NCBI RefSeq assembly: GCF_900108225.1 | Contig: NZ_FNUZ01000004.1 | Location: 62,001 to 126,000 of the forward strand | Source of the DNA: Thalassococcus halodurans | GTDB taxonomy: Bacteria > Pseudomonadota > Alphaproteobacteria > Rhodobacterales > Rhodobacteraceae | DNA: 64,000 nucleotides | Direction of reading: 5' to 3' | In this document: piece after piece, positions 22,111-27,582 of the stretch | Layout of the letters: every line of letters begins with the position of its first letter | How positions within the stretch are numbered: the first letter of the stretch is position 1 | The notes under the pieces: generated by a model | Told to the model about the DNA's origin: nothing | Seen by the model: only the letters and a program-made list of their open reading frames with translations | Database searches by the model: none | Made by a program: the position numbers and the translations under genes

Positions 22111-22317
22111 TCAGAGCAGTTGAAGGTCAGATGCCATTTCGCGGCCGTCACGGCCTTCGCGAAGTTCGTAGCTGATCTTCTGGTTATCCGCGAGGCCAGT
22201 CAGCCCCGAGCGTTCTACCGCTGAAATATGAACAAATACGTCTTTCCCGCCATCTTCGGGTGCAATAAAGCCGTAGCCTTTTGTAGTGTTGAACCACTTC
22301 ACGGTGCCATTCGGCAT
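22111..22317 (-). CDS. Cold-shock domain protein (CspA family)
   Basis: A 68-residue single-domain nucleic-acid-binding protein. RNP1 is KGYGFIAP and RNP2 is VFVHIS, after the usual NGTVKWFN start. It should bind single-stranded RNA or DNA and melt RNA structure. ATG 22317 follows AAGGAG at about eight bases; the longer in-frame form starting at 22467 has no homology. It stands alone, convergent with metR, with an upstream non-coding stretch of about 210 bases shared with the ArsC-like gene. Cold inducibility cannot be told from sequence. Confidence 0.95.
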   Translation of the reverse strand: MPNGTVKWFNTTKGYGFIAPEDGGKDVFVHISAVERSGLTGLADNQKISYELREGRDGREMASDLQLL

Positions 22318-22529
22318 GTCCCGTGTCTCCTTCTGTCTTACGTTCTTCCGGCGAGCCGGTCTTGACGTAACGGTCGGGCCACAGGAAGAAGTCGACGAAG
22401 CCAACCTGATCGGGTCTGAGAAACGACAGTTACCTCTCGACTGTCGCACGGGTCTGATAAAAATCAAGAAAAACCGCGAATGCGTTCACGAACGGCGTGA
22501 TATCGCGATTGGGAATGAAAGATACGACT

Positions 22530-22844
22530 ATGGTCTTATACGGTTTGAAAAACTGCGACACGTGCCGCAAGGCATTGAAAGCGTTGGGGGAAGTTGAATT
22601 TGTCGACGTTCGCGCCGATGGCGTGTCCGAGGATGTGTTGAAAGCGGCTTTTGACGAATTTGGTGAAAAACTGATCAATACACGGTCCACAACCTGGCGC
22701 GGTTTGGACGAAGAAGAACGCAAAAAAGAGCCGATTTCGCTGTTGAAAGCGAATCCCACCCTGATGAAACGGCCCCTGATCGTTGCTGACGGGGCCATGT
22801 ATTTGGGCTGGGATAAGGCCGTTCAGACCGCGCTTCTGGACTAG
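22530..22844 (+). CDS. ArsC/Spx-family thioredoxin-fold protein (YffB type)
   Basis: A 104-residue protein with the start VLYGLKNCDTCRKALKAL, so the redox motif is CDTC (Cys9, Cys12), and a later segment ISLLKANPTLMKRPLIV with the cis-Pro-type RPL turn of the ArsC fold. Members include arsenate reductases, Spx and YffB; the CxxC form suggests a thiol-redox or glutathione-linked role, but the arsenate-site residues are not clear. ATG 22530 or ATG 22515 could be the start. Its stop codon overlaps the stop of the convergent bufD gene by two bases. Confidence 0.82.
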   Translation: MVLYGLKNCDTCRKALKALGEVEFVDVRADGVSEDVLKAAFDEFGEKLINTRSTTWRGLDEEERKKEPISLLKANPTLMKRPLIVADGAMYLGWDKAVQTALLD

Positions 22845-23416
22845 GTTCCAGCGGCCTGTGCGGGGGCGCTTGGCGCGGCCATGGGGCTGCGTTTTGCGAT
22901 GAATTGATCCACCGACAGCGCACCTGCGCCTTTGACGGCGATGATGACAAAGGTCAGCATCCAGAATGCCCGTTGGTCCAGGATCGCGCTGTCCGGTGCG
23001 CGGTCGAACCACGCGCCCAGTGTCTCTGCGTGGGCGATACCGCCGTGGCCGTATAGGTCGGTCAGGCTTTGGACGGTGACAAATCCGATCATGCCCAGGG
23101 CAGCGGGACGGGCCAATAGGCCGATGACCAGCAGGGGTGGCAGGATGAATTCGGCGTAGGTGCCCGCCATCACGACCAGCCAGTGAAACACGCTGAGTTG
23201 GCTGGCGTCATATCCGGCGGCTTCCAGTTGTTTCGGGAATATCTGGGCGTAGGCCCCGACAGAAGGGCTGAAGAACCCGCCGATCCCTTCACCCAGTTTG
23301 GTTTTGGCCGAGGCCCAGAAATATCCCAAGAGCGTGGCGGCAAAGACAAAGCGTGCCAGCAGGGGCAGGATCTGGTCGTTTCGGTCGGTCGGGGCGAACA
23401 GCAGTTTGTGCAGCAT
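22841..23416 (-). CDS. DoxX-family membrane protein (BufD-like)
   Basis: A 191-residue protein with four or more membrane helices (about 20-40, 75-100, 100-120 and 135-155) and the DoxX-type start PLLARFVFAATLLGYFWASAKTKL. It lies 17 bases downstream of bufC and is the last gene of the bufABCD set. In bufferin operons the DoxX protein is the fourth member; its role (redox or membrane-linked) is not settled. ATG 23416 follows AGAGG. Confidence 0.85.
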   Translation of the reverse strand: MLHKLLFAPTDRNDQILPLLARFVFAATLLGYFWASAKTKLGEGIGGFFSPSVGAYAQIFPKQLEAAGYDASQLSVFHWLVVMAGTYAEFILPPLLVIGLLARPAALGMIGFVTVQSLTDLYGHGGIAHAETLGAWFDRAPDSAILDQRAFWMLTFVIIAVKGAGALSVDQFIAKRSPMAAPSAPAQAAGT

Positions 23417-23433
23417 GGTGCGGCCTCTTTGGG

Positions 23434-24168
23434 TCAAACGGTGATACGGGCAATTGCGCCTTCGGTGAAAAGCAGGGTCAGGATTGCGCCGACGTCGGTG
23501 TCGGGGGCATTTTCGATGGCTTGAGACAGGGTTTTGCCTGCTCCGAGCGCGCGAATGAATTTGGCGGCGTTTGCGGGCAGAAGGTGCGGTTTCGGGTCGA
23601 ACTCTTTGCGCAGGATCAGGATATCTTGTGCCGCTGCCTGTGGTTGGGGCGCGGTCGGGTCCAGTGCAAAGGTGTAGATGTCGTGGATTGGCCAGACCGA
23701 TTGCAACAGGATCGCAGAGGGGGCGAGCGACAGTTTTGCGTCGTCAATCTGTTCGGGAGCCAAAGACTGCAGCGCCGAGAACGGTTGCGGATCGTGATTG
23801 GCGGCGTGGTACGAGGTGCGCAGCCCGTATTCCAGCGCAGCGATATCCGGCAGATAGGGAAGATTGGCCAGTGCCTGAGTTTGGGCCAGAAACTGCGCAA
23901 AATCCGCACCGTAAAGCATCATCAACGGCGATTGCGGCGGGTTTGCACGGGCGTAGTGGGTGGCCAGAGCCCGAAAGTTCTGGTCACCCAACAACGAGTG
24001 GATCGCCGGAAAACCGGTTTGGAGTGCGTCCACGAGTGAAACGGTGACGTTGTTGCGATACACGCCATAGCGCTTGGGCGAGGGAACGCCTTGGGCGTTG
24101 GTCAGCCCCTGCGGCATGGGCGCATCGGGGTTCAAAAGCCCCGCGCGGAAATCGGTTTGCGTGGTCAT
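23434..24168 (-). CDS. bufC: DUF2063 protein, partner of the MNIO enzyme (BufC-like)
   Basis: A 244-residue protein of the DUF2063 family. The N-terminal domain has the typical order [16 protein letters not shown], then [25 protein letters not shown] (split at about 38-62) and [13 protein letters not shown]2063 proteins bind the precursor leader and help the MNIO (DUF692) enzyme. The ATG overlaps the bufB stop by four bases (ATGA), which argues for translational coupling and a complex. Confidence 0.9.
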
Positions 24169-25016
24169 ACGAACACCCGTGTCAGGGCTTGTGCGGCGCG
24201 GTCGGCCTCGGCGGCCAGAACGGGCCAGTCTGGAACATCGGTGTCCCATTCCACCAGCAACGGGCGGGGGCCGGAGTGGGCCAATGTGATATCCAGAAGC
24301 GCCCAGACCGGATCAGCGATTTCGCGGCCGTGGCTGTCGATCAACAGCGGTTTGCCGTGATCATCTTCGTCCTCGTCATGGCCGCCAAGGTGGATTTCGC
24401 CGACTTCTTCGAGTGCGAAGTTGGCAATGTAGTCTTGGGGTGAGAATTCAAGGTTGGTGGCGGACACGAACACGTTGTTCACGTCCAGCAGAAGGCCACA
24501 GCCGGTGCGTTTGGCGACTTCGCGCAGGAAGTCGGGTTCGGACCATGTGCTTTCGGAAAAGGCCAGATAGCTGGAGGGATTTTCCAACAGCATCTTGCGG
24601 CCAAGGGTGGCCTGCACCTGATCGATGTGATCGCAGATGCGGGACAGGCTGGCGTTGGTGTATGGCAGCGGCAGCAGATCGTTTAGATATTCGGCGCCGT
24701 GGCTGGACCATGCCAGATGTTCGGAAAAGCTGGCGGGGTTGATCCGGTCGCAAAGCGTTTTCAAGCGGGCGAGGTGATCGGCATCCAGCGGGCCTTCGCC
24801 GCCGATCGACAGACCCACACCGTGGACCGAAATCGGAAAGCGGCTGGCCAGCGCATCAAGCTGTGCCAAGGGACGGCCACCTTGGCCCATGTAGTTTTCC
24901 GCATGGATTTCGAACCAGCGCGTTCTTCCCGCGTCTTGCATGATGTCGGCAAAATGCTGGGGTTTATAGCCAAGGCCGGGGGCCAACGGCAGCGAACACA
25001 TGGTGGTATCGAACAT
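24165..25016 (-). CDS. bufB: MNIO (DUF692) multinuclear iron oxidative enzyme, BufB-like
   Basis: A 283-residue TIM-barrel enzyme of the DUF692/MNIO family, which uses two or three iron ions to modify cysteines in a peptide. Likely metal-binding stretches are visible in order: [53 protein letters not shown] and VEWDTD. In bufferin systems the product cysteines become 5-thiooxazoles that bind copper. ATG 25016 is preferred (AGGA upstream; the upstream extension lies inside bufA on another frame). It follows bufA by 59 bases, which contain a strong hairpin. Confidence 0.93.
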
Positions 25017-25040
25017 CGTCTTATCCTGCGGGAAAAGGGT

Positions 25041-25067
25041 GCGTGGGGCAGGAAGGCCACCCCACGC
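25041..25067 (-). terminator. Intercistronic hairpin between bufA and bufB
   Basis: GCGTGGGG (25041-25048) pairs perfectly with CCCCACGC (25060-25067) over an 11-base loop, shortly after the bufA stop. No T-run follows on the minus strand. It is placed to stabilise bufA RNA or end part of the transcripts, so that precursor is made in excess over the enzyme. Confidence 0.6.
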
Positions 25068-25075
25068 AAAGTGAC

Positions 25076-25381
25076 TTATGTTGTGGGCAGATCGCGATCG
25101 AGCGCTTCGAGCGAACCCATGCGCGCCTTGCCGTCTGCCATCGCAGGCAGTTCGATCGACGTGCATGTGCCTGCGTCAACCAGCGTGAAGGCGTTGCCCT
25201 GATAGTCGACTTTGGATGTGCCGGCGCAGGTTGTGCCCGGGCCTGCGGCGCAGTCGTTTTCACCTGCGAGGGAAACGCCGTAGCATTTCTCTTTTTCCAT
25301 GGCGTGTGCGCTTGTTGTTGCGGCTGTCATGGATGCGGCAACTGCACCAATCAGTGCGACTGTTTTGAGTGTTTTGGACAT
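25076..25381 (-). CDS. bufA: Bufferin-type precursor peptide (DUF2282, BufA-like)
   Basis: A 101-residue precursor of the DUF2282 family. Residues 1-27 form a Sec-type signal peptide ending AHA, and the rest carries exactly four cysteines, at 33 (KCYGV), 44 (NDCAAG), 52 ([13 protein letters not shown]) and 73 (GTCTS), as in family members. The precursor is thought to be modified on cysteine by the BufB/BufC pair and exported to the periplasm, where it binds copper. It heads a four-gene minus-strand operon, with AGGGGA before the ATG and a palindrome 39 bases before that ATG. That metal binding applies here is inferred from family and operon order. Confidence 0.93.
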
Positions 25382-25419
25382 TTCGGTTTCCCCTGTCTGA
25401 TGACATGTTTCAAAAAATC

Positions 25420-25438
25420 CGGAACGGGATCGGTTCCG
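25420..25438. promoter_or_regulatory. Palindrome upstream of bufA
   Basis: CGGAAC and GTTCCG form perfect six-base arms around seven bases, 39 bases before the bufA start. It could bind a regulator or be part of an ECF-sigma promoter (GGAAC-like -35 on the minus strand). I could not find a convincing -10 for the sigma-F-type signal known for such genes in Caulobacter. Confidence 0.4.
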
Positions 25439-25568
25439 ACGCCATCAGGGTGCCGCGAGAAGCGGGAGCAGGCCATTCACAGGCCCGTGGGTCACGATCT
25501 GCTTATCTCGTGTTATGGTTGTGTGATGGATTGCAGGTGCAGCAAGGCTATGTTTTTCGGGCCGAAAT

Positions 25569-25600
25569 AAAAAAGGCCCCGCGTGCTGCAGGGCCTTTTT
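25569..25600 (-). terminator. Terminator of thrS
   Basis: AAAAAGGCCC (25569-25578) and GGGCCTTTTT (25591-25600) form a G+C stem with A and T tails on both strands, 33 bases after the thrS stop on the minus strand. Because of the symmetric tails it could work in either direction. Confidence 0.88.
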
Positions 25601-25632
25601 GTAAGATTTCGCAACCTTCCAGTGGCGGAATG

Positions 25633-27582
25633 TTACAGAAGATCGGGCGCTTTCGCGGCCTTGGCCAGCTCGTCCGTAATTTCCGTGAGCGATGTTACAG
25701 AGGTTTTGTTTTCGCCCAGACGGCGCACGGTGACGGTACGCTCTTCGACTTCGCGGTGACCGACGGCCAGAATGACCGGCACTTTGCCGACCGAATGTTC
25801 ACGGACCTTATAGTTGATCTTTTCGTTGCGAATGTCGGCCTCGGCGCGGATGCCTGCTTTGCGCAGGATATCGACGACCTCGGTCACGTAGTCATTCGCT
25901 TCGCCAGTGATCGAGGCCACGACGACCTGACGCGGGGCCAGCCAGAACGGCAGCTTGCCTGCGTGTTCTTCGATCAGGATGCCGATAAAGCGTTCGAACG
26001 ATCCCAGAACCGCACGGTGCAGCATAACGGGGCGGTGCTTCGACCCGTCCGCGCCAACATAGGTCGCGTCCAGACGTTCGGGCAGAACAAAGTCCACCTG
26101 AAGCGTACCGCACTGCCAGTCACGGCCGATGGCGTCGGTCAGAACGAATTCCAGCTTGGGGCCGTAGAAGGCACCTTCACCTGGGTTCAGCTCGAACTCG
26201 CAACCTGCGGCCTGCGTGGCGGCTTTGAGGGCGGATTCGGATTTATCCCAGACTTCGTCGGATCCGGCGCGTGTTTCGGGGCGGTCAGAAAACTTGACCT
26301 TGAAGCCTTCAAATCCGAGGTCTTTGTAGATGCCTGACAGGAAGTCGATAAACCGTTTGGTTTCATCTTCGATCTGATCTTCGCTGCAGAAGATGTGCGC
26401 GTCATCTTGGGTAAACCCGCGAACGCGCATGATGCCATGCAATGCGCCCGAAGGTTCGTACCGGTTGCACGACCCGAATTCGGCCATGCGCAGCGGAAGA
26501 TCGCGGTAGGATTTCAGGCCTTGGTTAAAGATCTGGACGTGGCAGGGGCAGTTCATCGGCTTAAGCGCATTGACCGCCTTTTCGCGGGCGTGTTCTTCGT
26601 CCACTTCGACGATGAACATGTTTTCCTGATACTTTTCCCAGTGACCCGAAGCTTCCCACAGTTTGCGGTCAACGACCTGCGGTGTGTTCACCTCGACATA
26701 GCCGCCCGCGCGCTGGGCGCGGCGCATGTAATCCTGAAGTGTGGTGTAGACGGTCCAGCCGTTCGGGTGCCAGAACACCTGACCGGGGGCCTCTTCCTGC
26801 ATGTGGAACAGGTCCATTTCGCGGCCCAGTTTACGGTGGTCGCGTTTGGCGGCCTCTTCCAGCATCAGAAGGTAGGCCTTCAGGTCGTTGCGGTTCTGGA
26901 AGGCGACGCCGTAGATACGCTGAAGCATCTCGCGGTTGCTGTCGCCCCGCCAGTATGCGCCGGCCACGGACATCAGTTTGAACGCATCACCGGGGACCTG
27001 ACCTGTGTGCTGCAGGTGCGGGCCGCGGCACAGATCCTGCCAGTCGCCATGCCAGTACATGCGGATCGGCTGACCATCATCAGGGATCGCGTTGACCAGT
27101 TCGACCTTATAGTTTTCGCCGGTCTTTTCGTAGTGCGCGATGGCATCGGCACGCGACCAGACCTCGGTCCGGACTTCGTCGCGGGCGTTGATGATGTCTT
27201 TCATCTTCTTTTCAATCGCGCCGAGGTCTTCGGGTGTGAAGGGCTCTTTGCGGTCAAAGTCATAGTACCAGCCGTTGTCGATAACGGGGCCGATGGTGAC
27301 TTTGACGTCGGGCCAGAGTTCCTGCACCGCGCGGGCCATGATGTGCGCCAGATCGTGGCGGATCAGTTCAAGCGCTTGGGGCGCGTCCTGCATGGTGTGG
27401 ATCGCGATGTCCGCGTCGGCGTCGATCGGCCACTGCAGATCCCAGTGCTGGCCGTTGATGGTGGCCGAGATCGCTTTTTTGGACAGGGATTTGGAAATGG
27501 AGGCCGCGACTTCGGCAGGGGTGATACCTGCGTCGAATTCACGTGCGTTGCCATCGGGGAAAGTCAGGGAAATCTGGGCCAT
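25633..27582 (-). CDS. thrS: Threonyl-tRNA synthetase
   Basis: A 649-residue class II synthetase charging tRNA-Thr. Domain order is normal: TGS domain (1-60, SLTFPDGN), editing domain (about 65-225, [10 protein letters not shown]), catalytic core (about 245-535, [10 protein letters not shown] with a zinc-binding Cys, and [15 protein letters not shown] as motif 2), and anticodon-binding domain (last 110 residues). ATG 27582 begins the TGS domain after GAGGAG; the in-frame extension to 27753 runs into the neighbouring promoter region. It is divergent from the Tag-like gene. Confidence 0.98.

Follow-up and report, generated by a model that had tools for sequence, protein, structure and literature searches.

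The question raised by this locus is how a bufferin operon is switched on when the sigma factor that governs its described relatives does not stand beside it. The operon in question, bufA-bufB-bufC-bufD of Thalassococcus halodurans, lies on the minus strand of a 64,000-nucleotide stretch (assembly GCF_900108225.1, contig NZ_FNUZ01000004.1, positions 62,001–126,000), which is called the window here and to which all coordinates refer. The operon itself is of an already known kind and common in its clade, and the regulatory variant it carries was not found described. Comparison of the sequences suggests that, in the lineage where the operon is linked to thrS, a putative other regulator acting at a tandem-palindrome element upstream of bufA replaces control by a sigma factor of extracytoplasmic function group 16 (ECF16). 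The joint reading, namely that this is a Buf1-type bufferin operon for a copper-sequestering modified peptide, with control particular to the thrS lineage and a role for the stem-loop behind bufA, is in our judgement highly probable. The features concerned are the following:

25475–25505, minus strand: operator-like element upstream of bufA, with the core CGTGANNCACNNNNNYGTGA at 25477–25496
25447–25452, minus strand: −10-like hexamer, conserved in position in relatives but weak here (CACCCT)
25076–25381, minus strand: bufA, Buf1/DUF2282 bufferin precursor, 101 amino acids (PF10048, 8.7e-24)
25040–25068, minus strand: intercistronic stem-loop between bufA and bufB
24165–25016, minus strand: bufB, multinuclear non-heme iron oxygenase (MNIO) maturase (DUF692), 283 amino acids, above the NF050167 cut-off
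23434–24168, minus strand: bufC, DUF2063 partner protein (PME type 1), 244 amino acids (PF09836, 3.4e-25)
22841–23416, minus strand: bufD, DoxX-like membrane protein, 191 amino acids counted from the ATG at 23416

Reading of the minus strand bore out the complete set at 22841–25381 in the order given by the initial annotation. The ATGA at 24165–24168 joins the stop codon of bufB to the start codon of bufC; this four-base overlap, which had also been claimed, is present and is kept in 70 of the 74 relatives measured (6 of 80, in which bufD could not be delimited by script, were excluded). The relatives are, nearly all of them, the best 80 of 510 loci by BufB similarity, and the conservation counts apply to close kin. 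The published Buf1 core consists of the genes for a precursor, an MNIO, a DUF2063 protein and a DoxX protein, with the order bufABC strictly conserved (PMC12452194). Since gene set, order and overlap match this definition, the operon was assigned to the Buf1 clusters, and the claim of a complete bufferin-type operon stands. Among the profile checks that had been proposed, those for DUF2282, DUF692 and DUF2063 gave clear matches, while that for DoxX stayed under the Pfam cut-off. The genome holds a single DUF2282 gene and a single MNIO gene, both inside the buf operon.

The operon had also been put forward as the nearest thing in the window to an unusual system, its place in a marine-type Rhodobacterales genome being called worth recording, which overstates its rarity: DUF2282 is present in 279 of 394 family genomes, and BufB scored above its NCBIfam cut-off in 138 of 198. 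All 80 relatives match BufA, BufB, BufC and BufD, the nearest being a locus from a T. halodurans assembly whose BufB is 97% identical. The thrS gene lies upstream in the same stretch in 79 of the 80, the remaining locus, L098, beginning at bufA (it ends a contig, has no start codon and is absent from the bufA counts); an ArsC-like gene is near buf in 70 and a cold-shock gene in 69. A tree built from 50 BufB rows placed all 32 rows of the thrS type in a single group (85/92), separate from those of the ECF16 type, with one label change; four rows outside both groups were not counted, and L184 was excluded, its BufB reading frame being split. The idea of a rare or newly acquired operon was rejected on these grounds, and the family-wide frequency, the shared thrS neighborhood and the single thrS-type BufB group indicate that buf has long been established in the roseobacter chromosome.

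In all 12 Rhodobacteral loci where buf is not beside thrS (L168–L176, L178, L179, and L184), genes for an ECF16-like sigma factor and an NrsF-like protein were found within the same 10-kb stretch. Homologues of either were found in none of the 80 thrS-type relatives (E 1e-5, in the examined stretch) and in none of seven further thrS-type loci. NrsF was not found in the own genome, and the best match of its sigma factors to the ECF16 queries was 26% identical (in nine stretches, which account for 8 of the 15 sigma hits). The ECF16 promoter, for which the consensus sequences GTAAC-N17-CGAA (PMC8315932) and GTAACC-N16-CGAA (PMC3511200) have been given, stands before bufA in ECF16-type loci; no promoter of this type was seen by eye upstream of bufA in the window.

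Instead, the region upstream of bufA carries the tandem-palindrome element. The pattern CGTGANNCACNNNNNYGTGART was found there with at most two mismatches in 77 of 79 relatives (none in 32, one in 37, and two in 8), compared with 3 of 1580 mononucleotide shuffles and 2 of 79 reverse complements; of the other two loci, L057 has four mismatches (with a one-base insertion) and L074 is without the element. A further 30 loci, whose minus-strand members had been scanned unturned, were kept out of this count (22 scored, 8 lacking a start). The full element, as derived from 35 non-redundant sequences, is TNACG-N4-CGTGA-N1-NCACG-N4-YGTGA-NT. It consists of two palindromes of 14 bp, spaced 15 bp apart; a weaker TNAC half-site precedes them by another 10 bp, and the −10-like hexamer keeps a fixed distance. 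Strict matching in 198 family genomes yielded 32 hits, one per genome and all just upstream of bufA, against 1 with the reversed pattern. When one mismatch was allowed in 30 of these 32 genomes, the 30 bufA sites were accompanied by 17 other places (control 10), and no recurring gene was evident from the list of these places. In the window and in the own genome the exact match is unique to bufA; the own genome has 13 one-mismatch places, most of them inside open frames. A PMC literature search returned no description of the upstream element or of bufferin control in roseobacters, which is no proof of absence from print, and PMC12452194 uses neither the word promoter nor the word operator.

One half of the element recurs where the sigma switch is present. 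A single box, TCACG-N4-CGTGA, is located 4–6 bp above the −35 of a complete ECF16 promoter in 11 Rhodobacteral ECF16-type loci and 11 bp above it in two Rhizobiales plasmids (Sinorhizobium and Aminobacter), and this position makes the element separable from the promoter. The box was present with at most two mismatches in 13 of 18 scored loci against 48 of 3600 shuffles, 6 of the 24 loci being unscored for lack of an ECF-like promoter. To us this suggests that ECF16 once shared control with a second regulator, which the thrS lineage may have retained, with its site duplicated, when the sigma switch was lost. As a regulon marker in the own genome the single box YCACGNNNNCGTGR was rejected (17 places versus 13 for the reversed control; 13 of 15 places read lie in an open frame), and the one full TCACG-N4-CGTGA, at C4:975977, at the end of a sigma-factor-containing frame, was taken as chance. 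The bufA leader also holds a terminator-like inverted repeat, TCGGAACCGATCCCGTTCCGG followed by ATTTTTT (25419–25439, minus strand). Some relatives have stems near the same position, but little above chance: stems of at least 5 occur in 21 of 35 bufA leaders versus 30% of 700 shuffles, an excess too small to support the claim of a 5′ hairpin in the bufA message.

The second regulatory feature lies in the bufA-bufB gap, which in the window is 59 bases long. A 62-base stretch here has a minimum free energy of −25.7 kcal/mol (z −3.41), and 0 of 200 shuffles were as low. Perfect stems with 7 or more pairs were detected in 72 of 79 gaps scanned, and 8 or more pairs in 27 of 34 non-redundant thrS-type loci (24 of 1360 dinucleotide shuffles) and in 16 of 24 other loci (18 of 960); L101, with a gap of 586 bases, L208 and L209 were left out of the comparison. 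Stem sequences drift between loci while the pairing is kept. Among the 12 ECF16-type Rhodobacteral loci, 11 have the stem (at least 7 pairs); Sinorhizobium, Aminobacter and two plasmids of E. coli lack it (at most 4 pairs). This conserved pairing fits what would be expected if the precursor is made in excess over the enzyme, and a stem-loop that spares or stabilizes bufA mRNA would have this effect. The photosynthesis puf operon of Rhodobacter offers a comparison for such a stem-loop. Partial termination at the stem-loop is equally possible, since a T-rich tail follows the stem in 15 of 34 loci.

BufA matched PF10048 with 83.7 bits (cut-off 22.4), thus a failure of the 101-residue protein to match DUF2282, which had been named as evidence against the annotation, did not occur. 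Its cysteines are at positions 33, 44, 52 and 73, and four cysteines are present in every precursor among the 79 relatives read. By eye, the N-terminus is signal peptide-like, with a basic start, a hydrophobic stretch and a possible cleavage site, AHA|M, after residue 27. The invariant core of 34 aligned precursors is K-C-x-G...A-G-x-N-x-C-x-A-G-x-G-T-T-C-A-G...D-x-Q-G-N, and conservation is at least 90% at the fourth cysteine and, in the tail, at R87, G89–E92, R96, D97 and P99. The tail motif, (G/P)SL(E/K/T/D)...RD(L/I/V)P, lies outside the Pfam domain and occurs in 79 of 79 relatives. It is partly shared by Sinorhizobium and Aminobacter (GSPE-LTRDVPS), and RD(L/I/V)P was not seen in nine precursors from the ECF16-type loci L168–L176, which have ends such as GMGSLEPVKM. 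One guess is that this motif contacts BufC. No NCBIfam model matched bufA or bufD.

BufB matched the MNIO family PF05114 at 3.9e-103 and NCBIfam NF050167 (MNIO_BufB) with 375.2 bits against a cut-off of 310, and aligned with the solved relative 3bww at E 3.7e-44. The residues conserved in MNIOs are kept in a 15-row alignment (e.g., H65, E99–H100, E145–N146, D178, N181, H209, and H213, and further D227, H229, E256, and D258), most of them being present in 3bww as well; some are presumably the iron ligands. In the alignment of BufB with 3bww, which served in place of FonB itself, the equivalents of FonB Arg15–Arg16 were K-P and that of Phe250 was T. These readings fit the published statement that conservation at Arg16 and at the site of Phe250 breaks down in MNIOs of the DUF2282 type (PMC13097082). 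In three family genomes the bufB frame is interrupted, being split into two frames in one and containing an in-frame TAA in two others (G150:C1:525482-526265, G161:C288, and G101:C45), possibly by decay or sequencing errors.

The BufC match to PF09836 covers residues 2–93, and its sole NCBIfam match was HvfC at 58.7 bits, below the cut-off of 142. A sequence search of the PDB up to E 1 gave no match for BufC. Its AlphaFold model (predicted local distance difference test, pLDDT, 89.3) retrieved only three Foldseek matches at E<=0.001, the TglHI partner chains 8hi7_A and 8hci_A and NGO1945 (3dee); TglI 8hi7_A (1.2e-6) and NGO1945 (3.8e-4) matched over the whole chain. According to the model, BufC has the known fold of an MNIO partner. 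In the alignment made for BufD, 27 of 27 members match DoxX at E<=0.01 (best 3e-8), 13 of them matching DoxD too. This alignment, in which the starts were chosen by script, and an AAAGAGG-like ribosome site make the ATG at 23416 the likely start of bufD rather than the TTG at 23437 of the open reading frame list.

The operon resembles Caulobacter sigF-nrsF/CC3254-CC3257 in its four families and their order, with a DUF692-DUF2063 pair, a DoxX-like gene last and a four-cysteine precursor (PMC3511200, PMC12452194), but differs from it in having the tandem-palindrome element instead of an adjacent ECF16 sigma/NrsF pair or a visible ECF16-type promoter. The RpoE7-controlled SMb20530-SMb20527 of Sinorhizobium meliloti has the same gene set. 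Its promoter was mapped by 5′ rapid amplification of cDNA ends (PMC6180224), the mapped letters are unchanged in locus L205, and it is preceded, at a distance of 11 bp, by one TCACG-N4-CGTG box. S. meliloti combines an ECF16 promoter with one box and has no bufA-bufB stem-loop, whereas the window has two boxes and no ECF16 promoter. The captophorins (fontiphorin, oxazolin/HvfABC, and bulbicupramide of marine Microbulbifer) likewise pair an MNIO with a DUF2063 partner, which make thiooxazoles on a cysteine-containing precursor (PMC13097082, PMC12538549); their precursors are of the EGKCG or another cysteine-motif type, whereas that of the window is a DUF2282 protein.

Gene set, order, coupling, BufC fold and conserved residues were observed at this locus, and thiooxazole chemistry, export and copper binding of the window peptide are proposed by analogy with published bufferins, which are reported to bind copper and to improve growth when copper is in excess (PMC12452194). 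BufA would be exported by Sec as a precursor, after di- or tri-iron BufB and its recognition partner BufC have converted the central cysteines 44 and 52 to copper-binding thiooxazoles; cysteines 33 and 73 would form a disulphide, and the mature peptide would sequester excess copper in the periplasm. BufD may have an auxiliary role, probably in redox. Transcription in the thrS lineage would depend on a putative DNA-binding protein at the tandem-palindrome element and not on an ECF16 sigma factor, and the stem-loop after bufA would raise precursor mRNA over enzyme mRNA. A fuller history is offered tentatively, as plausible though still short of probable: the operon lodged at thrS, lost the ECF16/NrsF switch and came under a copper- or stress-sensing activator with the ancestral box (TCACG-N4-CGTGA), which doubled into an operator present about once per genome and pointing to a near-dedicated regulator, while the structured bufA-bufB RNA sets the precursor excess.

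Several observations weigh against this account. The left outer half-site of the element is degenerate in the window (TAAGC vs. TNACG), the −10-like hexamer is weak, and no sigma-70 consensus promoter was found in 22300–25700. The thrS-type loci L177 and L185 are without the element (five mismatches), the Asticcacaulis, Cupriavidus and Paracoccus plasmid operons are without the box, and most relatives are close kin, thus their counts are not independent. The four flanking genes examined (ArsC-like, cold shock, LysR/MetR-like, and thrS) include no copper gene or regulator. BufD reached 18.4 bits with Pfam DoxX, below the cut-off of 23.6, and AlphaFold modelled BufA poorly (pLDDT 53.8), for which reason its structural reading was rejected. 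Neither H2O2 nor cadmium nor chromate induced reporter fusions to the bufferin promoter of S. meliloti (PMC6180224). In a class-wide search, box and ECF16 promoter occurred together in 2 of 385 genomes, neither seen as a DUF2282 operon (L212 and L213, without DUF2282 in the frames read), and the strict combination was rejected as a general alphaproteobacterial bufferin signature. In L213 (G756:C59) the box and an ECF16-like promoter lie between a divergent sigma-factor gene and the gene for a cysteine-rich protein with NPCAAK/NPCNP repeats, possibly another precursor type.

The fixed spacing of the promoter-side half-site and the −10-like hexamer in the 35 non-redundant sequences, together with the absence of a good −35 from most thrS-type promoters, would also be expected if the element were an extended promoter, read by an alternative sigma factor so far unrecognised, rather than the operator of a separate regulator. 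This seems unlikely to us, as two 14-bp palindromes 15 bp apart form the element and the single box also occurs upstream of complete ECF16 promoters elsewhere. Resemblance of the element to CueR, LexA or Crp/Fnr sites was considered as well and set aside. The stem-loop could similarly be an ordinary transcription terminator, with bufBCD served by its own promoter. At least four T within nine bases follow the stem in the 15 of 34 thrS-type loci mentioned above, but the other 19 lack such a tail or a stem of six, the gap is short and the sigma-70 search was negative; a plain terminator is therefore doubtful, and a stem-loop that favors the precursor message is preferred.

As for function, the same modified peptide might serve mainly against oxidative or hypochlorous stress, or against another metal such as gold, chromate or cadmium, rather than copper. 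In relatives, the ECF16 sigma factor responds to chromium stress (Caulobacter; PMC3511200) and to hypochlorous acid (another alphaproteobacterium; PMC8315932), an operon called gig is gold-induced (PMC12452194) and BufD is DoxX-like. Against this stand the copper binding and growth benefit published for bufferins, and the ECF16 switch was not found beside the thrS-type operon, nor NrsF in the own genome, which leaves a main job other than copper handling improbable. Copper acquisition in the manner of methanobactin, also made by MNIO enzymes, is far less credible and nearly dismissed: the similarity of BufB to MbnB is weak (59.9 bits, cut-off 325), BufB exceeds its own cut-off, the precursor has a DUF2282 core and an apparent Sec-type signal sequence, and no import gene was found among the neighboring genes examined. 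Judged by its MbnB score and its DUF2282 precursor, the set is not a methanobactin operon. Copper sequestration thus remains the preferred function.

Bufferins are a young and widespread family, the control of which has been worked out, in the literature found, only for ECF16/SigF-type operons. A large marine lineage with the operon at a fixed chromosomal place and a near-unique control element provides a handle for tracing another regulator of bufferins. For unequal levels of precursor and enzyme, the conserved stem-loop offers an explanation that can be tested. While the operon is ordinary for these bacteria, these two parts are worth following.

Some further observations concern the surroundings and distribution of the operon. 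The ArsC/YffB-like gene at 22497–22844 (plus strand) converges on bufD, their stop regions overlapping by 4 bases, and in several relatives (e.g., L036, L037, L066, and L093), though not in the window, a small membrane-protein gene (MRNAALVLG...GKPDE) stands between the two. A roseobacter-like thrS-bufABCD-arsC-csp stretch occurs in L105 under the name of the actinomycete Nocardioides marinus; this assembly is probably mislabelled or contaminated. Behind the bufferin operon of Aminobacter L206 (NZ_AP017988.1) lie genes encoding a GDCCVxC-domain and a YHS-domain (seleno)protein. Sixty Escherichia plasmid records match BufA, and complete bufABCD-type sets are present on the Escherichia coli conjugative plasmids L207 (CP048869.1) and L210 (CP063712.1), the former with a TetR/AcrR regulator gene directly upstream of the set.

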